A stretch of DNA of 64,000 bases from Hoplostethus atlanticus. Taxonomy: Eukaryota; Chordata; Actinopteri; Trachichthyiformes; Trachichthyidae. The stretch spans positions 1,860,001 through 1,924,000 of the forward strand of contig JAXDDX010000054.1 in the NCBI GenBank assembly GCA_034670405.1, read 5' to 3'. Both the position numbers and the translations under genes were made by a program. Each line of letters opens with the position of its first letter. Position 1 is the stretch's first letter. Shown in pieces: positions 15,047 to 64,000 of this stretch. A model generated the notes under the pieces. The model was not told the DNA's origin. It saw only the letters and a list, made by a program, of their open reading frames with translations, and ran no database searches.

Positions 15047-29283
<14,237 letters not shown>

Positions 29284-50620: not shown

Positions 50621-50758
50621 TCACAGTTCACTGTGAATGCCCTGCTGCTTTAGCACCGGCTGACAGGCCACAGGAGTCTGAAAGTCCATGATGTACTGGC
50701 ATTTGCTGGGCTCCTTCACCGATCGCAAGGCTGTCTCCGTCCCACATGTCAGCGTGAC
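50621..50758 (-). CDS. Last coding exon of the prkcsh-like gene
   Basis: Acceptor TTTTTCTAG on the - strand, then 45 codons from VTLTCGTETALRSV to GIHSEL and TGA (stop at 50,621-50,623). An in-frame TAG sits immediately upstream, so the reading frame is only used after splicing. It carries three Cys of the MRH fold and the EPSKCQY motif with the conserved ligand-binding Glu and Tyr. The C-terminal HSEL resembles the HDEL ER-retrieval signal of glucosidase II beta but has Ser for Asp. The tail after the MRH domain is short and lacks the Pro/Glu-rich stretch of the mammalian protein. Confidence 0.88.
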   Translation of the reverse strand, partial: VTLTCGTETALRSVKEPSKCQYIMDFQTPVACQPVLKQQGIHSEL

Positions 50759-53256
50759 CTAGAAAAAGCACAGGAAAGAAAAAGTTGAGGTGGTGTGGGC
50801 AGGAGAGACATTGTTAGCCTAAGTCAAGAGCCATGTCAGTTTTATCTGGTAACGGGAGCTGACTGAGGACATTCTCCTAGATCTGGCTTTACTGATTTGC
50901 CAGGCACGAGCATTTATCGTAGTACTTTGTAGGGATTGTGAGGGAAATGAAGGAGTGGGATTCACTACAAATGACAAAATTATGCAAAAAAATACAAGTG
51001 GAATTCACGGCAATTTGTCGAGACTCTAACATATTTAGGTCTCTGCTCAGATGAAATTACAGTACGCGGAGAGCGAAGTATATTTCATCGCTGCCCTATC
51101 TAATACGGCCGTGTATGGGAGCCGAGCTGATACGGTGACACCGGGGTACTGTGGAGTTACGGGACATCGCTACTGCGGTTCCCCATATGTGGGCAGGACA
51201 TGCTAGGACGTGATTACCACTGCCATGACTTTAATAGGTGACTTTTGTTGCCCTCTGCAAGAAAGTGGAAGGGAAAAACAACTTATTTTACTTGTGGGGG
51301 GTTTCCATAGCAACCCCTCACATCGCACTGCACCCTATACAGACAGTCCCTCCAGTGAACAAAGGCACCTGGAGAGAAAGAAAGATGGGAACTTGACAGG
51401 TATTATTGTGCTAAAATTTCAGACTGGTACAACTAGTGATTTGGTTTTGTCCTATACTTAAATTAAAAATAGTGTCTTTTGTTGTGTCGCTTAGTATCTT
51501 GTTATACAGGGATACTAGGTAGGTGTGTGTCGGTGGTGTATTTGTGGTTTGGTTTTGAATCACCATCCCTCAAATGTGTCACGGGTTCCAAGACAAGCGT
51601 GACTTTACCTCTCACTTCATGTGTGTTCATTCATTGCTAGCCTTCATTTCAGTAGCAGGGTAGCGGGTCTTAGATAGAACGATATTTTATTGTTCTCCAA
51701 GAGGACGTTCCTTTTCACAGCAGGTACATGGAAACAGTAAAGAGTTATATGAAAACAACCACACAGAGACTTTAGTCCAAGATGTAACGGAGGCGGTGGC
51801 AGAGCGCACAAAGCTGACAAAGTGAGCTTTGCTACAGATCGAGGGTCTGTGTCTGCGGCCGGACGGGAAGTGGCTGAAACATGGACTCAGGGTGCGTTCA
51901 GGGTCTCGTGCTGTAATGGATGTGTTGTGAGGGCTTGTGACTGGAAGGTCGCCCGTTTTGAATCCCCGAGTGGCTGGGAAAACGTAGGTGAATAACACTC
52001 TCCACTCTCCCCCCCTCCTACTGCTGAGGTGCCCATCTCCCAGGTGTGAATATGTGGAGCTGTATGAACGTGAAGCAGGCTGTTGCTCTGTCGGCTTTCC
52101 CAGAATAAGTCTGATTAGACAAGGAACAGAGCCACACGGGGTGCCAGCTGGACAGGAACAATTTAAAACCACAGCTTTTACATGCAATAGCCATTATCCG
52201 GTACTCTGAATTGAATAAATTAATAACCCAGAGCCTTAATGTGCACTGCATGTTCCTTAGCTTTGAGTTTCCCCCCCTCCCCATTGAAACAATACATCAC
52301 TGAGGTCTAAAGAGAGAAGCTTGTTTCACCACAGAAGAAGAGAGCACTGTGTAAAGCCGAGGTTCGGGCATTTCAAATATAATGAGGGACGACTTCTGCC
52401 GAGACTTCATTTATGTCAACTGCACACGGGGGGAAAGGGAGAGTCGTATCAAAGGAATTCAATTTAGTCTTTTCAAAGGGGGCCCCTGGATGGCAGGAGT
52501 ACATACATTTGCGGACAGCGTTTTGTTGGACTCCCATGTGAAGACGGGGAAAATGAGATGATTAAACGTGCTACATTTTTAATTGAGCAAATTCTCACAC
52601 AAAAACGTTAACGGATGTCATAAATGTGACAGGAAGAAGGGGGACATGTTGTGAGAGGAGAGAGTGGAAGAGTTGAGGGGAAAAGGCTTGAAAGAGGAAG
52701 CAAACTGGAGAACATTAACCAAAGCAGCTTACGCCACTTGGCTTTGAACGCAACATCTTTTTTTTTTTACCCTCTGAGTATTCACAACAGTTTTGCCTCA
52801 GTTCGTTATTACACATATTTGGCATCTGCGGTGAAATCCAGAATCGGAGTGGAGTTTTCGCCCCCATTACTGTGTGTTGTTTATTGTTGTTTATAAGCAC
52901 TTACAGTAGGGGACAGCCAAGTGTTGTTTTATGAAGGAATTTAACCGATAAATAGTTTGCTCATGTTTGTGTTGCCTACTGCTTCTCTATTGTAAAGGGA
53001 GAGCGGCTTCTCTTTTTTACTTTAACTTTTACTATGTCAGTCTGTCTCTCCATCCATCTGTTGATTTGTCTGTCAATGTGTAAGTCTACCAGTTTGCCGA
53101 TCTGTCTGTCCATCTATTAGTTTACTAGTGTGTGTGTGTGTGTGTGTGACACTAACCATAGTATTGCGGGTAGGGCCTTGCCAGCAGGGTTCTCCACTCT
53201 CATACCTCATCTGACTGTACTGGTTCTCTGGTGTTCCTGCCCACACCCCCCACTTT
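50621..53256 (-). CDS. Glucosidase II beta-like (PRKCSH-like) gene, 3' end only
   Basis: Two exons on the - strand join in phase 0 to give KWGVWAG...MRYESGEPCWQGPTR, then VTLTCGTET...EPSKCQYIMDFQTPVAC and an HSEL C-terminus. This follows the end of the PRKCSH MRH domain (human WGSWIG, MKYEQGTGCWQGPNR, CGKET, EPSRCEYLM, TPAAC as I recall). Glucosidase II beta is the ER-lumenal non-catalytic subunit that binds mannose on N-glycans and holds the alpha subunit in the ER during glycoprotein folding. Three of the four MRH mannose-binding residues are present with the family spacing: Arg, then Glu 19 residues later, then Tyr 6 later. The fourth, Gln, would be in a missing upstream exon. Earlier exons (signal peptide, LDLa, EF-hand, acidic coiled coil) were not found to 64,000. 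I leave the symbol empty because it may be a prkcsh paralogue rather than prkcsh itself. Confidence 0.85.
51925..52045 (+). mobile_element. tRNA-derived SINE fragment
   Basis: GGCTTGTGACTGGAAGGTCG followed by CCCGTTTTGAATCCCCGAGT carries a B-box-like core, then GGCTGGGAAAA, GTGAATAAC, CTCTCC runs and CTACTGCTGAGGTGCCC. This order is typical of a common fish SINE. The copy is diverged and its 3' part is truncated. Confidence 0.65.
53128..53149. repeat. GT microsatellite
   Basis: About 11 GT units on the + strand (AC on the coding strand), directly beside the donor of the prkcsh-like penultimate exon. Confidence 0.95.
53157..53256 (-). CDS. Penultimate exon of the prkcsh-like gene (MRH domain)
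   Basis: 100 nt between acceptor CCGATTTCAG and donor ATG then GTTAGT on the - strand. The first base completes a codon from the missing upstream exon (GGN gives Gly). The 33 further codons begin KWGVWAGTPENQYSQMRYES and end PCWQGPTRNTM. The spaced Trp residues, the CWQGP motif and the following Arg match the MRH domain of glucosidase II beta. Compared with human as I recall it, WGSWIG, AMKYEQG and CWQGPNR are each recognisable. Confidence 0.87.
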
Positions 53257-55123
53257 CTGAAATCGGGAAAAACAAGAACACGGTTACGTTCAACATTTTG
53301 AAAAAAAAGTGCCTGTGGAAAAAAAACAAAAAACTGTTTCTACCCATTAGTGTAGCCACAAGATAAACAATTTCCCAATCCCATATAAACAGTTGGGACG
53401 AATCAAGCACAGAAACAAATATTTGCTATCACTAAACACCAGGTTGGCTCGGTGAAAAACGGTTTCCTTCAGCAAAAAAATGGAAAGCTGGCAAGAAGGC
53501 CGGCCTGGCAGTGCCCTCCGTTGCTTCTCCGGCATTGGCGCTCTCTCGCATCTCTTCTCTTCTCCGACAATGGAGGGAAAATATTAATTACCGTTTGTCA
53601 GAGTTAATTCTTTGTGCGATAACACACGAGGGAAGGAGAAGAGAGGAACACAACGCCACTGAAGCCCGTCCCAAATGAGGCCCTGCCTGCCCAGTGCTAG
53701 ATAATTAGATTCTCACCAAAACTTTAAAGGGGAGTTAGTTGGGAGAACCGAAGCCAGCTAGGGTGCCACTGGACGCTCTCCAACACAGCCTGCAGTACCA
53801 ACAGATGCCTTTTGATTACACTACGCGTACGCATGGCAGATAGTGTCTTTCTTTGAGGTAACATTGGATATTTCACATTGATATCTGTTGCGTTTAACTC
53901 ATGTTGGTGGTCAGTATTGATTTTTGTCAAACAATGCAATCCTATTAGGCAGGGAAATGTTTTCTGCATTTGCTCCATAGTTGATTGAAGTCTTCCTTAA
54001 AAATGGCTGGCAATGGCAAACACCACTAACTATTTTTGTGGGTGTTTTTGTGTTAAAATTATAAATGCTACTGTTTGGGCGGCATACATGGAGGAAAAAA
54101 AACAAAACATGAAACTCTGCACCCCTCCTCTCTTATGGCTACATCTAGCCACGTTGTCAATGTTCTGTTAGCTACGAAAGGTCATGAATTCAATGTATTG
54201 TTCTTTTCTCAGCAACCCCTCCCTCTCTGCACAGTAGTTGATCGATGGGTCTGCTTTGACCACAGGGCAGGGAATCAGAGACGAGGTGAAGTCTGCTCAG
54301 TTCTTTTGCTTTTTATTACAGGAGCTAATCTGGTATATTTCATTACCAGTTTTCATATTTATGTATGCAGAACTACAGTGAGAATCTTCCATTTCTCTTT
54401 AGCTCATAATGACATTATGACGCTAAAAAAGCTTCCACTGCATTTAGATAGAACTTCACTTTCAGTCAAGTGACACAAACATTTACTTTATGTCAAAACA
54501 TTTGCTGTGGTGTCACTTTCTCAACACAAAGCAAAGAAGGTATTTGTCTCCAGACGCCTGTTCTAGACCAACGGTATGAAACGTGTGAAATGGATTTTCT
54601 TTTCTAGGATGTTTTCAAACATGTTTTGGTCGCTTTTAACGATCTGTAGCGGTTCATGTGACATTTGATACCTCGTTGCTGTTGTAATGTGATGGACTAT
54701 TTAGTAAACCTGCAGCGGAGTAACATATGAGTGACCTGTCATAGTAACCATAGCAACGCCGGTATTCACTTTGAACTACACCGAGTCCTACGCCTTACAT
54801 AAGAGGGGATGCATTTCTCGGCAGGTAAAAAAACAAGCCCTGCTGAATAATGCATCCCTCTTTCATTAGTTTTTCTGATGTCCCCCCATCAAATCATTTT
54901 CACAGCACATAGAATGGGTGTTTTAAGAGTTTACACAGAATTCGCAATTCTCGGCAGGGATGCAAAACTCGGCATAACACCGGCAGCTAGCCAACAAGAA
55001 GCCCCTGTTGGTATCGCCATGAAGTGACAGATTTGGTTGTCTTTGGCGTGATGACATGTCCACTTTGCTTTTTTTGCTTCAAAACTGAAAAGTGGCTATG
55101 ACCATGATTATCGGCGCCCTTTT

Positions 55124-55351
55124 CTAATACGTAGTTTTTGGTAAAGATGATGCTTCCAAATGTTTCTTGTAACCATCAATAAGCTTCCTGCTCCTTTCTG
55201 CTGGCAGTTTCTCCCCCTCTTCAATTACAACCCACTCCAGTTTCCAAGGATTGCTTTGACCAACTGCACATTTCAGGTCTCTCTATAGGTTCTCAACGTG
55301 ATTGAGATCAGAAACCACATCGCCGGCCACGGTGTGTTTTGGGTCATGACC
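55124..55351 (-). pseudogene. Tc1/mariner-like transposase C-terminal relic
   Basis: On the - strand the frame reads GHDPKHT, then SDLNHVENL, a TAG stop where Trp is expected (55,283-55,285), then RDLKCAVGQSNPWKLEWVV and on to RKLIDGYKKHLEAS, with a stop at 55,124-55,126. DPKHT and DLNPIENLW are signatures of the DDE domain in Tc1-like transposases. About 13 residues between the two signatures are missing, the Pro of DLNP is His, and the Trp codon is a stop, so it is dead. The open frame continues upstream to 55,555 but is not clearly transposase there. Confidence 0.75.
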
Positions 55352-57729
55352 TTCGATCGACTTCTTAACAACATTGCGAGCTGTGGAAACAGGAATACCA
55401 TGATCATGTGCTATTGTAAATCCATAGATGTGTGAAGACCGATTACAGTATTCCAGAAAATATTGTATATTATCTGTATAAAATGCCAGAGTGCCGATAA
55501 TCTTGGCCACAGCCGTATGTTGCTTTGCTCTGAACAAACACATTAGTGAATACATTTATTCATGATCCACCATTTGATTTGATCCAATGGATTTTTTCCA
55601 AACATTAAACAGCAATAACCATAAATATTAAATGACAGACTTTGCGGGAAGTAATGACACAGAAAACAAGATAATGTTTCTGTCTGATCACAGAGGGACT
55701 GAACAGAGAGTGGAGGGAAGTGAAGAAACACATACTCCTGCATGGCATTATTCTATTCTAACGAACAGGAATTCCTCTCCACATTTCTTTTGACTACACT
55801 CTTTACTTTCATTTGACCTTCCTGATGGAAAACATTGGGTTCTCTTTGATTTCAAAAAGCACTCTCCAGCCTGTACAGACGCATGGCTGTCTTAAGGTCC
55901 CCGAGTGTGGCTTTTCTGCCATCCGTGACGTGTACGGCTTATTTAAGATGTCTGAACGGGTCAGTCAGAGGTGAATTGCTCACACAAGTGGAAGCCGGCT
56001 GGGCCCGAGCGCCTCGCCTTTTTCCTTCCAGCCTGTTTGATTGGGTTTTAGCACTCGGTTAGCACCAGGAGGCCCTCAAATGGATTGCTGTCAGGGCCGG
56101 GAGACGTGGCCGAACGGAGAAAGTGACAGTGCTCCGGCTCTCGCTACCGGTTGACTAGCGATCCCTTGCGCGTCACCTCTGTACCCCCTACCCCTCCTCC
56201 TCCCTAACCTCCCCCCAACAGGGACACACACACACATACACACACTTCCTCCCCTCGCCTCCCCTTTGTTCAGTTCCTCGCCTTACCCCCATTGTCGCTC
56301 TGTCAGCCCTTCTGCGCCCCAGGAGGCAGCGCCAGGCCCTGTCAATTAGGCTCCAGTTATCACTGAGATGTGGCCGACACATTCCAGTCATTTGGACTAC
56401 CAGGAGTCACGAGATGGAACCTTATTGACAGATTGTTCCCTGTAATAATACCTCTTAGCACACGGTATCGGCAGACTATTTTCCACAGGAGGAGCATGCA
56501 CAGCCAGTTATTTACACTAGCATTTGGAAAAGAGCACTTTTGGCCTTGTTGCTTCATTTCTCCACAATTTGCGTTGACATTTAAAAAGTGTGAAATGCAT
56601 ACCTCGGCATCAGTGCATAAAGAATGTATGTTACTCTCTGATCCTTTGATCCTTTACAGTATAGCACAGGCGGAAATTGCAAAATGGACCCTCCTGTAGT
56701 TATGTCATCTCTATTTTCTCATCCAATTTATCACTTTAAGCTGCAACCACGATACACACAATGCTCCATGTCCATAACAGTGGCTCACTTGAACCTGAGC
56801 TGGCAGGGTTGGTCTCCGCAAATTACTTGGATTACTGTATCTACTTTCTTCCCTCTTACTATAACGTGTTGGTTCGTCTGCTACCAACACTCACATTACC
56901 TAGAATACCTAGACTAGTGAAAAAAATAACGTTCAGATTATTTCTAAAACACACACCCTTTTTCAGCCCACTGTGTAAGAGATGGGTTGAGAAACGAAGT
57001 AGAAATAAAATGAATACATTTAATATGTCAATTTGAATGCATTTACAAGTATGTAAATAGATTTGTGTGGGCAGACGACAGAAAATTCCCTTCCTGCTTT
57101 TGTGGAAATCCATTTCCGACCACAAGGAGACAAGGGGGATCATGAATGCAGACTTAATTTTAATGATTAATGACGGCAGATATTGAACACATGCTCTTTT
57201 TGGGTCTTAAAACGCCGGGAATCTTGTTTACAGATATCTGGGCCATGATTCATTCCTTGTCTGGCCTTCTCTAATGCCATAAAATGCACCTTCCATCACA
57301 GATAAACCTGTAATGGTGGAATATCTAGACGGCTAAACCCATTATCCATTCATTTGTGTTGCATTGTGGGTGAGATAGTGGGCCTCTGAGAACTCCATCC
57401 CGGCATCAGACATACCACTAACCACAGACATCAGAGAGTCAATCACTATGGTGTGATTTCTATGGACGCACAGAAAAGCATATGGAGACGTGATTTAATT
57501 ACATCCAGTACGTACAAAAGTACCATGAAGAGGAAAGTTTGCAGCAAGAAAGTTACTTAATAATAAACAGTCAAAACAGACGAAAATCATGGAAATCCCA
57601 TCGAGTAAAATATGAATCATAACTCCAATCTGCCAATTATGGAATTTAAGACTATACAAAAGATGTGATGTAATGATTAATGGCAGAAAGTGGTCTCAGA
57701 GTACCCACGTTATTTAACTGATTTTTTCA

Positions 57730-57985
57730 AATCCTCATTAAGAATAATTAGCTTTCTTAAAAAAGCTGATGAGCTTTCTTTTCTTCTTCCGATAATGGCT
57801 TGAGCTGATATAAGCTCCTCTTATAACGATGCGGTCGCCAGTGATTCTGTTTTAAACTTCATCGTAGCGCTAATCCACGCGCCTTGACTGATAAATCCCG
57901 AAGATCCACGGCTAATCTCGCCCCGCACTGAGAGGAGAGTTAGCCCCTCCAATATAGCCACACATCAACCTGTCAGAAGCAATTA
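57730..57985. promoter_or_regulatory. Candidate conserved non-coding element
   Basis: Dense mix of AT words (CATTAAGAATAATTAGC) and GC words (CACGCGCC) without repeat structure. Weak evidence for a regulatory element. Confidence 0.15.
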
Positions 57986-58061
57986 TCATTTCGACAACTC
58001 TACTCTGGTGTTTAAACACCCTGCAGATACTGAGAGGAGACAGAAATCTGGGCCAAAAGTG

Positions 58062-58100
58062 TATGTGTGTGTGTGTGTGTGTGTGTGCATGTGTGTGTTT
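58062..58100. repeat. GT microsatellite
   Basis: Long, slightly interrupted GT run. Confidence 0.95.
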
Positions 58101-60484
58101 GTAGACCCTAGGATTTCACTGGAGAGAAGTTGGGTGAACGAAACCACAGGCAATAAGAACAGAATGGTGGCGCCCTTTGGTATCTCACTGGTTTCCTCAA
58201 GTAGAATGAACACAAATTGGCCTTCAGTGCTGTGTTTGTATCTATTGTGTGTATTCGTTAGAAAGTCGACTGAAACAACATCGTATCTGGCTCCCACGCA
58301 CAAGGGCATGGTGGGTGAACATGTCTGCATGCATATATGCATGTATGGAACATGTTTGCATTCGATTGCTATGCGACGTCTCAGGTTTGCGTGGTTTTAT
58401 TTTATACGTTTGTATGGGAATCAAAGTTTAGCGTGATGTACATGATGTGCACGATGTCCCGGTGGGTGTTATGACATGCACAGACACTTACTTGCACAAT
58501 GAAGCAACTCCCATAAGTGCTTACTTGATGTGTACGCTACTTAGGCTACAGTAAGGAGAAAAGTCTGCCTTGTATACTATGATTACACTCAATTTAACAC
58601 CCAATGGAGAGCATCAACATCAAGCTAGGTCTTTTATATTTACTCCAGTCATTTTTCAGCTGATGGAAAGTTAGCAACTGTCAACTTAGCATGAAATTAC
58701 TTTCATGCTACTGAATCCCAACCTTGTGCATTACTAATGCCATACCTGTGTTAACATGGTATGAAGTCTGTGCTTATTATCCTCACCTTCGGATGCCTAC
58801 AGTAGCATCCACTCATTAGCTGCCACTGCAATGAATTACACCTCACAGCTATGCTTTTCGGCGCTTTAACAAGGGGTCCGGTGTAGCAAGTTAGTCCCCT
58901 CACTATGCTGTTAATGCGATAATCATTTGCAGCATGAGACACAGTGCTGCACTAACAGGCGGAGATGCTGGTTGATCCTGATGTGGTGCAGCAACAGTAC
59001 GCAAAAAAGGCCACACTCAAAGCTTCGCCAAGCAATGCCAAGCACCGCCGACCAATGCTACTCACGTAAAGTAGTCAATTAGAAAGCAGTGCCTTGAGTT
59101 GAGACCAGGCACTGTCATTACTGTGCCAGTCACTGATGCCCCCCCCCCTCACCTCTTTGCCACCCAGTGTGCCTAGCACCTTAATAAATAATTCATACAC
59201 ATAGGAACATGTGAAGGGCACATGCTGGGTGCTCGCTCAGGGCCTTGCTTCCACCCCATTGCATGATTGGTATACGAAGGGGGCATTTCCTTTGCCCGTT
59301 GAATAGTTATTTAAGAGCTGTGGGGTACAGAACAGGACTAAGATGTATTATTACACAACCGGACCGAATACAGGAGGGTGGAATTTAAACAAATCTTCAA
59401 AATGGCATGTGTGCTAGAGGTTTTAGTTTTGTGGCACCACTCTGTTGGCCAGTTTATTATGTATTACCTTGACCGACAGTCTAATTAAGGATGGATGAGT
59501 AACATTCACGGCACCTTTTTTGTTTTACATTCAGCGCACATACACCCAGGCCACAGTTCTAAAATGAACTCAGGGTGCATATTTCATCAACACTTCCCCG
59601 CCTGATATGAATCAGGGCTGATGTCAAACCCAAATCAGTATTCTGTTAACAGCTCACTTATGCCTCATTAACGACTGGGCTAGATGTTGCCATGACTACC
59701 CGGCAGAAAGGCCATCAGGGGTTCACAGTGTCAGCCCTCCACTCCCTACCACTTCAACCCTCTCCTCAGACACGCAAGAGTCATTACCCTTTGCCGTGAT
59801 TGGCAGATAAGGGCCGGGTTGTTAGACGTATAGGATGTAAACCCATAGGAAGATGAACAACGTGAGATTTGGGACTTCAGTTTCATGTATTCCAGTGTCT
59901 GCATTACATAAAGTATAGTTATTATGTGTGCTATCTGTTAGTAGGCTATACTATTATACTGTGTGATGCTCCTCTCAAGCGTTGGGCATCAAGCGGCTGC
60001 CAGGTTCCCAGGTAAAGAGGGCCCCTCTCGTCACTAATGGTACTCCAGCGAATGACCTTGACAGCTTGAAAACGAGCGCATTAAGTAGAACACTTTAATG
60101 TATAATTATGCACTTGTTCCAGTGGGACTGTCACCGCTCTGTGGGTTAAATAGTTACGGCTCAGAATAGGTGGAAAAATAAAAATAAAATATTTTTTCAA
60201 AATGTCTATCAAAACAATTAAGGGGCAGGACTGGCTTTGATATGAATACATGAAAGGGAGCATGACTCCACTCGTTAAGTGAGCACATTCAGAAAATGGT
60301 AGAAGGTAAGTAAAGCTACAACAAACACTGCTATTGGTCATCACACTAAGGGGTCGTAACTCGCTCTTATTTTTTACAAAACAGTTTGACTAAGCATAAT
60401 AATTAGCTATCCAAACACAGAGTGGTCCAATTTGCGAGACAAAATAGGTGAGAAATGTTAGCAAGCAGGCCTATCGGGAATGTC

Positions 60485-60605
60485 CTGCTGCCTCGATGGG
60501 CTGTGTGGCACATGCCATCTGCCTGTGATGTTGTAGGTTCAGGTCTGGTGCCAACCCCTCTCTCGTGTCTCTCTCAGCTGTAATGTTTAATGAAGAAGAA
60601 ATACC
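60485..60605 (+). mobile_element. tRNA-derived SINE fragment
   Basis: TGATGTTGTAGGTTCAGGTC is a B-box-like core, preceded by GCTGTGTGGCACATGCCATC and followed by GTGCCAACCCCTCTCTCGTG and a CTCTCTC tract, with a short A-rich end. The layout is typical of a tRNA-derived SINE head. Family not assigned. Confidence 0.55.
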
Positions 60606-61282
60606 TTAAATATAACCTTTCAAAGTAGGTCTGACTATTCTGACTGTTCCAACTATACTATATTTTTCAACTATTATACCCTCAATTCAGAATCAAATGC
60701 AAGAAAGTTGATTAAAAACATCTTTTGACAGCTGCCTTGGTGTGTCTCGCCCTTTCAGCCACTTCCCACTGATATCCAATTTGAGGATGAGATCCATCAC
60801 ACTCTTAATTTTCTCACCTCAGGTTGACTTTTAAAGTAACCCACATCAAACTAAAGGATGACATATGGAGTCTTGTGATGCCATTGATGGTTCAGTTAGT
60901 AAAATACCCATCACCTGTATCCTTTTGTAACAGAAAAAAGTTGTTTTGTCAAGAGCTGATGAAGTGTGTCATTCCCAGATTAAATCTCAGGTTGATGTTC
61001 AATTTCTTTGTGTTCACTTGTAACATGCTCAAGTTCCAGTAGTTATACAGTAATATCTTACAGCTCCCTTGTGATTGCTGTGCAATAAAATGGCCACCTA
61101 TTGAGATAATGATCTACTTTTCCTCTGTTTATACATGTGCAGCCACTGCAGAAAACTGCAAGTTAACAGTAATTGATCTTAAAAGGATAAGAGATGTGAA
61201 ACATTTTCTCTGAACCTCTCTTTTAATAATTTCGGGAAAAAAAGCTCCTGGGATTTCTCAGTTGCCCTCATGAGGAATTGGC

Positions 61283-61322
61283 TATTATAATATATATATA
61301 ATAATGTATTATAATATAATAC
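61283..61322. repeat. AT-rich near-palindrome
   Basis: TATTATAATATATATATAAT followed by AATGTATTATAATATAATAC can fold back on itself. A simple AT repeat. Confidence 0.8.
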
Positions 61323-63700
61323 ATTTCCATATTACCATGGCCACAGAGTAGAGTTTCTCTTTTTTTGGCCTTTGCCAATACATTTGCTCAGTTGGATCAT
61401 TCAAGCTAAGGCCTCTCAAAGGACCCTGACAGCCTGGAGGCATTCACACTGCTGCACATCCTTCTCCTGAGCACCTGGGAATTTCCTGTGTAGCACATTG
61501 TTGGGACCTTTTATTTAGAGTGCATAAATCCTTTACAAGAAATATGGGCTCAATCTAGCACTGGTTATAAAATGAGCCTGGCAATAGGTCTTTGAAAACA
61601 TCATTGTGACGCTGTGTTTCTATGTGGCTCAAGAGCAAGATGTATTTAGAGCATGTGTATTATGTCTATACTGCTACAGACAAGTCCTATTTGTTTGTTT
61701 TTCACGGTGGCCAGCACATCCCACTCTCTGTTGGGCTGCTCTGCGCTGTTGTTTCGACTGCCTGGCTTCTTCCTGCCGCATTCGCAGCGGGCATACGCAG
61801 TCATTCACTGTGGTTTGAATGTTGCTAGGCTACATCACTTCTCCACTGTTTTCTGTTTGAAAATCTACTGTTCAATAAAGCAGTTCAAGGGAGACCTGTG
61901 GGTTTGAATACTGAGCGATGTGAACCTGCAAGAGTAACTGACAGCACTAATAGCCTTTTTTGCTTTCACAATAGGCCTTTTCTTTTTTCTCCTGACTGTA
62001 GCACAGCAGCACTATACGAGCCTGCCTCCGTGCTCCATGCATTCAATCACAGTTTTCATTCGTTGGGACATTCATGGCCTTCACTTCACTTTTCTGTTGT
62101 AGAGTGCAAATTGTGTCATAACCACAATGGTGAAAATGATCCTTATATGGTGTTCTACTGTTCCTTCATGTGTTATTATCCACCCAGCACCATCTAAATG
62201 CAAGAATTATTATTCCTTATTTTATCTATCCTATTTTCAGCAATGGGTGTTGGAGATGTTCCAAGCTTAGACCGTCAAGCGCTGTGTGTTTCCAAGGTTA
62301 AAGGGTGAACAGGCAAGCTGCTCACTGGGCCCTGCACAATTTCAACACTGCCTTTTCTCTCTCCTGATGTGCTCTCAGTGATGGAAAGTGGAGAGCAGTT
62401 TGACCCCGGCGCGATACAAGGGCCTAGCTCCTTGAACCTTGCGGGGCGGCACACGCCGACCCCACGACCCCAGCGGCGTGGCCACCTGATTTCCCTAGAG
62501 TCCCAAAACAAAAACCCATTGGGTGACCCCTCAACTGATCCCTCCCTCCTCCACCGCCCATGTAAATTATCCCATCCCCCTCTGTCTGGAGGAAAAAAAA
62601 CCCTGGTTGATGCAGCGCAGGGCTGGCGGTAGTAGTAATCTTACAATGGTGCATTTTTTCTATTTTTATTTTGTCTAGCCACACATTATCAATATCTATA
62701 GATTCTTGCTTGATGAAGATTTTCATCTAGACTTTCTAAACTCCATCGTTCATCTTTACTGACCTTTGGGAGACTATGAATTCAAAATACATCAATTTAA
62801 AATAGAGAATGAAGGTTTCTGTCTGGGCCCCCTACTGTTCCATATCATGTAGCTGGAGCTTTTTCCATGTGTTTATCTAAAGCAAACTCTATAAATATTT
62901 CAACTGCACTTCTGCTAACAGTGAAAAGTTATTATGGCCGAGCAGTGTTCTGGGGGCATACTTTAAGTGCTGTTTTCAGTTGTACTTGTTGTTGTTGTTA
63001 GCAGTTAGGAAGGAAATGGCTTGAACACAGCTAATTACTCGATGTTGACAAGGTCCTTCTTGGGGACGTCCATTTTAAAAGTTAAATAAAGGACATAGAT
63101 AGTGAGCTTTAGTACTGTACGTATTTGTTTTAGGCCACCGTGGCTATTTCAAAGAAAATAAAATTGAGGTTTTATAGTAGGTACTCCTTTTTGCTGTTGT
63201 CTGATGTTTTATACTTGATTGAGCATAGAGCTGTTTCTTGTCTCTTTGCATCTCTGCCTATGAGAAAATGACATTTCACTTTGTTTTACTCTGCTTATTA
63301 CCTTGTGTGATTATATAAGATATTTCATCTGTGTCTGTAATGTATATTTGTTATTTAATTTACAGACATTTGATTGTCTACAGCTCCTATTTAACTCACT
63401 TCTCTCAAGTGAGTCAGAAACTTTAGAAGTAGCTATGTACTACATACTGTTGCTAATGTCGGTTTAATGATAATGTTAAGCTGGCAAACAATGTCATATT
63501 GGGAAGCGTGGATAAATAAGCTTAAAGGTGACATAATGTTCATACAATAAAAAAACTGAGGAGAAACAAGAACATATTTGATTGTATTCCTAGTTTGGCA
63601 GTTCGATCTCCTGCTTCAGGTCTGCTGTGACACTGCAGAGAAACCCGTCTCCGAGGCTTGTGAGATACAGATGAATGTGCTATGCTGGTGACATGGGGGT

Positions 63701-63701
<1 letters not shown>

Positions 63702-63733
<32 letters not shown>
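63702..63733. repeat. GT microsatellite
   Basis: About 16 GT units. Confidence 0.95.
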
Positions 63734-63734
<1 letters not shown>

Positions 63735-64000
63735 TCTGTTCCTCAAACTGTCAATAACAGTAATGCCTTCATGTTATGTAAGCTCATTTCAGCAACACAG
63801 GGTTAAGCAGCATGGCGTCTCAACGAGTCCTCAACTTTAGCCAAACCAGCCTCTATTGCACATTGCACTTCCTAACCTTACTGAAAGCAGCTGCAAGGAC
63901 CGTAGCACTAATCAATGTACAGCACAACATGCCAACTTCTTTATCGACTGTACGCGCCCTGTTTTGTTTCCCTCAGCCTACAGATATATACTGTAGAGCT

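Follow-up and report, generated by a model that had tools for sequence, protein, structure and literature searches.

The window analyzed here (the whole stretch of 64,000 nucleotides, C54:1860001-1924000, within a genome of 633 Mb) contains, facing the 3' end of elavl2, two exons that resemble the end of the glucosidase II beta subunit, and raises the questions of where such a gene came from, how old it is and whether it could still encode a working protein. Glucosidase II gates entry into the calnexin cycle, and its beta subunit, PRKCSH, is generally treated as the product of a single-copy gene in vertebrates. The analysis described below indicates that the gene is most likely an ohnolog of the canonical prkcsh, left beside elavl2 by the early vertebrate (2R) duplication of a block with the order elavl> <prkcsh <dmrta (arrowheads give orientation).

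The penultimate coding exon of the prkcsh-like gene (53157..53256, minus strand; detected by tblastn and spliced alignment) encodes part of the MRH domain (WGVWAG...CWQGPTRNTM); it is 100 bp long and has the same length and phases as the exon C103:1687677-1687776 of the canonical gene. The last coding exon (50624..50758, minus strand), identified by spliced alignment, reading frame, PDB and Pfam matches and a genome-wide PF13015 match, encodes the end of the MRH domain and the C-terminus ...GIHSEL, and is followed by a TGA stop codon (50621..50623, minus strand). An 81-residue peptide joined from two reading frames of the window, including 3 junction residues read from the intron, resembles the PDB entries of glucosidase 2 subunit beta (mouse and human, E 9.3e-20 and 2.6e-19) and to the Pfam family PF13015 (2.3e-17). 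The PDB and PF13015 matches and the spliced alignment bear out the initial annotation, in which two minus-strand exons had been assigned to the end of a glucosidase II beta-type MRH domain; they close a gene that has at least 14 exons.

Only the 3' part of the gene is located within the window (50621..64000, minus strand), and the rest extends outside it, up to an ATG at C54:2015206 (155206 on the window scale), giving a span of 104.6 kb from ATG to TGA. The exons were recovered with our own splice-aware dynamic-programming alignment of the minus strand of C54 with a profile consisting of human PRKCSH and the canonical fish copy. In addition to the two exons in the window, spliced alignment yielded accepted minus-strand exons at C54:1927193-1927264, 1941428-1941517, 1944212-1944281, 1980970-1981056, 1996045-1996123, 1999741-1999807, 2006940-2007069, 2011170-2011287, 2012364-2012421, 2014179-2014274, 2014534-2014650 and 2015125-2015206; the helix and EF-hand exons among these were accepted on weak similarity. 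All 14 accepted exons can be joined in phase at GT-AG sites, and the frame is open from the ATG to a missing linker and from the linker to the stop, an openness that is partly by construction given that the program penalizes stops and has no frameshift state. The region where the linker exon is expected, between C54:1980970 and 1944281, contains 29 phase-compatible candidates, with none convincing among the 25 listed; an automatically proposed linker exon (C54 1954076-1953881) was rejected as a low-complexity sequence containing a TH repeat. Introns reach 15.0 kb between adjacent accepted exons, in addition to a 36.7-kb gap in which the missing linker must be located; the introns of the canonical gene are at most 2.0 kb long.

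Judged by eye, the predicted protein has a signal-peptide-like start (MRCHIIIAVVFWSVCVDS...) and ends with ...HSEL. It matches PF12999, the PRKCSH N-domain with paired LDLa-type modules (1.5e-40, 139.3 bits, cut-off 34.9), as well as PF13015 (4.9e-24) and PF07915 (2e-8), which represent the MRH lectin domain and are both above cut-off; an NCBIfam search returned 0 families. All 16 cysteines that human PRKCSH shares with the canonical fish protein are retained, and so are, in the MRH alignment, the sugar-binding residues Gln, Arg, Glu and Tyr of this domain. The tryptophan of the CW-GP motif, which we take to be equivalent to Trp409 of the S. pombe MRH domain, is conserved as well. Trp409 is named as a key residue of the yeast domain (PMC6272264). 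The first EF-hand loop appears good by eye (DSNKDGSLTVDE) and the second is degenerate; the EF-hand Pfam models score below cut-off in this copy and likewise in the canonical copy. The acidic Glu-rich segment was not found in the search for phase-compatible exons.

Human and mouse PRKCSH (also known as glucosidase II beta, hepatocystin and 80K-H) have in common with the predicted protein the signal-peptide-like start, the LDLa-type N-domain (60/88 residues identical to human), the helical region, the EF-hand loop, the MRH domain and an ER-retrieval-type C-terminus, and are 43-45% identical to it over 416 alignment columns. The differences are the Glu-rich segment, which was not found in the fish gene, the degenerate second EF-hand loop and the C-terminal HSEL in place of the HDEL of the mammalian proteins. 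GNPTG, OS9, ERLEC1 and other MRH proteins share the MRH fold, but the gene described here has a PRKCSH-type N-domain, and its MRH domain matches glucosidase II beta (E about 1e-36) better than GNPTG (7e-14). The PF13015 score of this MRH domain is 85.2 bits, compared with 74.7 for human, 73.2 for mouse and 72.6 for the canonical fish copy; the match is somewhat longer, and the higher score weakly suggests that the domain may have kept older states. Taken at the level of sequence, the prkcsh-like gene is a second, diverged, apparently intact copy of the glucosidase II beta gene. Its product would be an ER-resident, glycan-binding alternative beta subunit of glucosidase II, in which the N-terminal LDLa-type domain would dock the catalytic alpha subunit GANAB, the MRH domain would hold mannose on high-mannose glycans, and the HSEL tail would provide for ER retrieval.

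Whole-genome searches with PF13015, PF12999 and the window protein identified two PRKCSH loci among the best candidates scored. The second locus is the canonical prkcsh (C103:1681210-1688031), located tail-to-tail with elavl3 (C103:1701952-1696350), which rules out the possibility that the gene in the window is the only prkcsh of this species. The canonical gene is compact, with a coding span, as aligned, of 6.8 kb, whereas the copy beside elavl2 covers 104.6 kb; over the 416 columns, the canonical copy is 63.5% identical to human PRKCSH and 45.7% identical to its diverged counterpart, which in turn shows 42.8% identity to human and 44.7% to mouse. The exon plan is common to both fish genes. 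After merging one exon that had been split by the program, the canonical gene has 16 exons, and 14 of its 15 junctions can be compared: 12/14 fall at the same residue and in the same phase, and the other two are in the same phase but are off by 2 and 4 residues. Given this agreement of intron junctions, the copy beside elavl2 arose by duplication at the genomic level rather than as a retrocopy. Exon 6 of the canonical gene (C103:1683241-1683382) contains a one-base frame break, with the two halves matching human PRKCSH in different frames; this is probably an assembly error, whereas a genuine break would mean damage to the canonical copy. Elsewhere in the genome, C47:2352243-2352347 weakly resembles the last MRH exon (E 0.002) and could belong to gnptg or another MRH protein.

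The gene order around the two loci speaks to their origin. The elavl2 coding exons are located on the plus strand of the window (15062..29280) at 15062-15292, 20405-20512, about 22943-23098, 25279-25506, about 27065-27106 and 28954-29280, as delineated by tblastn with a human ELAVL2 query, and of the five clear ELAVL loci detected genome-wide, this one scores highest for that query. The tail-to-tail arrangement with the prkcsh-like gene that was proposed initially therefore stands, but the distance has to be revised from about 18 kb to about 21.3 kb, coding end to coding end. On the opposite side, the strand of the prkcsh-like gene also carries a dmrta gene, by position dmrta1 (dmrt4), whose DM and DMA exons (open frames C54:2019311-2018553 and 2018408-2017452) lie some 2.2 kb upstream of the ATG; a tetranucleotide repeat is located between this gene and the prkcsh-like start, at about C54:2017068-2017292. 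Genome-wide, 3 DMA loci were found, on C54, C58 and C42. On C58, elavl4 (ELAVL exons C58:599264-637801) and a DMA gene, by position dmrta2, are tail-to-tail, about 50 kb apart, within C58:599264-688017. The DMA gene on C42 is located 49 kb from a KANK gene and is, for that reason, probably dmrt3. The five clear ELAVL loci take 25 of the 28 matches and comprise elavl2, elavl3, elavl4 and two elavl1-like genes, presumably the teleost ELAVL set; the names elavl3, elavl4, dmrta1 (dmrt4), dmrta2 and dmrt3 are based on similarity together with position. The elavl1-like pair (C4:9942322-9945158 and C148:119946-125542) is 91% identical over 321 codons, which is consistent with a pair from the teleost duplication.

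Hence three arrangements are found in one genome: elavl2> <prkcsh-like <dmrta on C54, elavl3> <prkcsh on C103 and elavl4> <DMA gene on C58, with the neighbors matching in order and orientation. Both PRKCSH loci are tail-to-tail with ELAVL genes, and this arrangement, together with the dmrta neighbors, supports the original proposal that the ELAVL-PRKCSH pair predates the vertebrate duplications. In the stretch of C58 that separates elavl4 from the DMA gene (50 kb, including 5,000 bases of N), PRKCSH gave no tblastn match at E 5 and a spliced score of 45.5, compared with 49.8 on the null strand; in 120 kb of C103 around the canonical prkcsh, the DM domain gave no match at E 1e-3. When 10 of the 132 ORFs of at least 100 aa in the C103 flanks were scanned, 2 of the 10 matched, both of PDE4 type and 1 above cut-off. 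The human neighbors CNN1, ELOF1, RAB3D and a piece of CDKN2 had no match at E 1e-3 in 161 kb of C54 or 120 kb of C103. Comparison of the same two regions at the DNA level yielded 13 matches: 4 correspond to ELAVL exons, 1 to an exon of PRKCSH, and the remaining 8 measure 34-140 bp. The longest match outside exons (C54:1980299-1980437 and C103:1731718-1731857; 140 bp, 78% identical) could be a repeat or a shared element.

The neighborhoods of both copies have counterparts in other vertebrates. In human, PRKCSH and ELAVL3 are tail-to-tail neighbors. Gene lists for cattle give RGL3, ODAD3, PRKCSH, ELAVL3 and ZNF653 in order (PMC12523860), a list for a horse region has PDE4A, KANK2, PRKCSH and ELAVL3 together (PMC9526059), and kank2, dock6 and prkcsh occur in one figure legend on notothenioid fish (PMC6884616). 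C103 also carries a PDE4 exon and a KANK gene, which, in view of the horse and notothenioid lists, fit the mammalian PRKCSH-ELAVL3 block. For the other two blocks, the synteny dmrt4-elavl2(-caap1) and dmrt5-elavl4(-faf1) has been described as shared by fish, reptile and human (PMC7689362), the same elavl-dmrta adjacency as on C54 and C58. The prkcsh-like gene fills the slot between dmrta and elavl2, and the main text of that study names neither prkcsh nor glucosidase.

The principal alternative is that the copy beside elavl2 is a fish-specific duplicate (3R or later) that moved by chance between elavl2 and dmrta, in a genome that is teleost-like and has two ELAVL1-like loci. Such a gene would have had to arrive by an independent event within a single interval of about 128 kb out of 633 Mb, with exactly the orientation that reproduces the arrangement of elavl3 and prkcsh, and not as a retrocopy. 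Phylogenetic evidence is divided. In a rooted MRH tree of the mammalian proteins and both fish copies, with S. pombe glucosidase II beta and GNPTG as outgroups, the best topology has the diverged copy branching before the mammal-fish split (AU p 0.911, compared with 0.132 and 0.094 for the two others), and a free search places it outside the canonical genes with a support of 57. The best tree goes against the placement of these exons inside fish-specific prkcsh duplicates, a possibility considered at the outset. The fish-pair topology lies 3.6 log units below it, but the AU test does not reject this topology with both outgroups (p 0.132) or with S. pombe (0.201) or GNPTG (0.525) as the single outgroup, and the long branch of the diverged copy could be drawn to the outgroup. 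A search of IMG/VR for outgroups with the N-domain alignment gave 25 pattern matches and 0 relatives. Among polarized MRH columns, 3 favor an early split and 2 the fish pair; among unpolarized ones, 8 are common to the two fish copies but not to mammals and 4 to mammals and the diverged copy but not to the canonical one, a count that favors the fish-specific duplicate. So does the asymmetry of unrooted branches, 0.21 for the canonical fish copy compared with 0.35-0.37 for mammals, although the ratio ranges from 0.25 to 1.09 at 95% (150 bootstraps), reaches or exceeds 1 in 10/150 bootstraps and goes the opposite way in the middle third of the protein; the shorter branch leans mildly against the early split and would also be expected from a fish-specific one. 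The 4DTv values (16/45, or 0.356, for the prkcsh pair; 50/123, or 0.407, for elavl2/3; 46/135, or 0.341, for the elavl1-like pair) are uninformative, as they do not separate 2R from 3R. Sequence alone does not settle the age of the duplication, which rests on position and not on trees; with the positional evidence taken into account, we consider a fish-specific duplicate unlikely.

It is also conceivable that the block duplicate is indeed old but that the gene is decaying and yields no working protein. The copy forms a long, fast branch (1.21 substitutions per site), the acidic linker exon was not found, and one EF-hand loop is degenerate, all of which would be compatible with decay. In a decaying gene, however, one would hardly expect 14 exons in phase with GT-AG sites and a complete set of the 16 shared cysteines, nor identity to the canonical copy that is patterned by domain, with 64/88 residues identical in the LDLa-type N-domain and 61/116 in the MRH domain versus 30/84 in the helix and 14/49 in the EF-hand region. 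We therefore regard this explanation as quite improbable. That the exons are chance ORFs or an assembly artefact, for which no support was found, is barely credible given their order on one strand, profile matches well above cut-off and a spliced score of 334.5 for the 3' 50 kb versus 47.0 on the opposite strand.

Under the favored scenario, in which the prkcsh-like gene is an ohnolog of the canonical prkcsh, the ancestral block elavl> <prkcsh <dmrta would have been duplicated in the early vertebrate duplications, with a different member lost from each block and all three kept only on C54. The span of more than 104 kb might reflect the position of a bystander gene in the elavl2/dmrta regulatory landscape, and exon loss in other lineages would leave an empty elavl2-dmrta interval; the DNA comparison of C54 with C103 provided no conserved non-coding evidence for the regulatory-landscape idea. 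The mammalian DMRTA1-ELAVL2 interval is gene-poor. A broader reading, to which we assign about even chances, is that jawed vertebrates obtained a second glucosidase II beta from 2R, that, at least in this fish, it has persisted as an alternative subunit that is functional and under regulation of the elavl2/dmrta1 type, and that its exons were lost from the mammalian DMRTA1-ELAVL2 interval.

In the publications consulted, neither a prkcsh ohnolog in vertebrates nor an elavl2-prkcsh pair is described. Database annotations of such genes do exist, judging from a probe named 'Predicted: glucosidase 2 subunit beta-like' in a salmon table that does not tell the locus (PMC6215684). A zebrafish review counts prkcsh among the models that show a phenotype (PMC12462111), which implies that any second copy in zebrafish would not fully replace prkcsh. 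We regard the gene described here as a duplicate retained within an already known paralogon, and it probably is a further survivor of the genome duplications of early vertebrates. The triplet on C54 provides a concrete ancestral order (elavl, prkcsh, dmrta), joins two syntenies that had been known separately and gives a checkable prediction on the DMRTA1-ELAVL2 interval of other vertebrates. If the second subunit is indeed of early vertebrate age, some fish could run two forms of glucosidase II.
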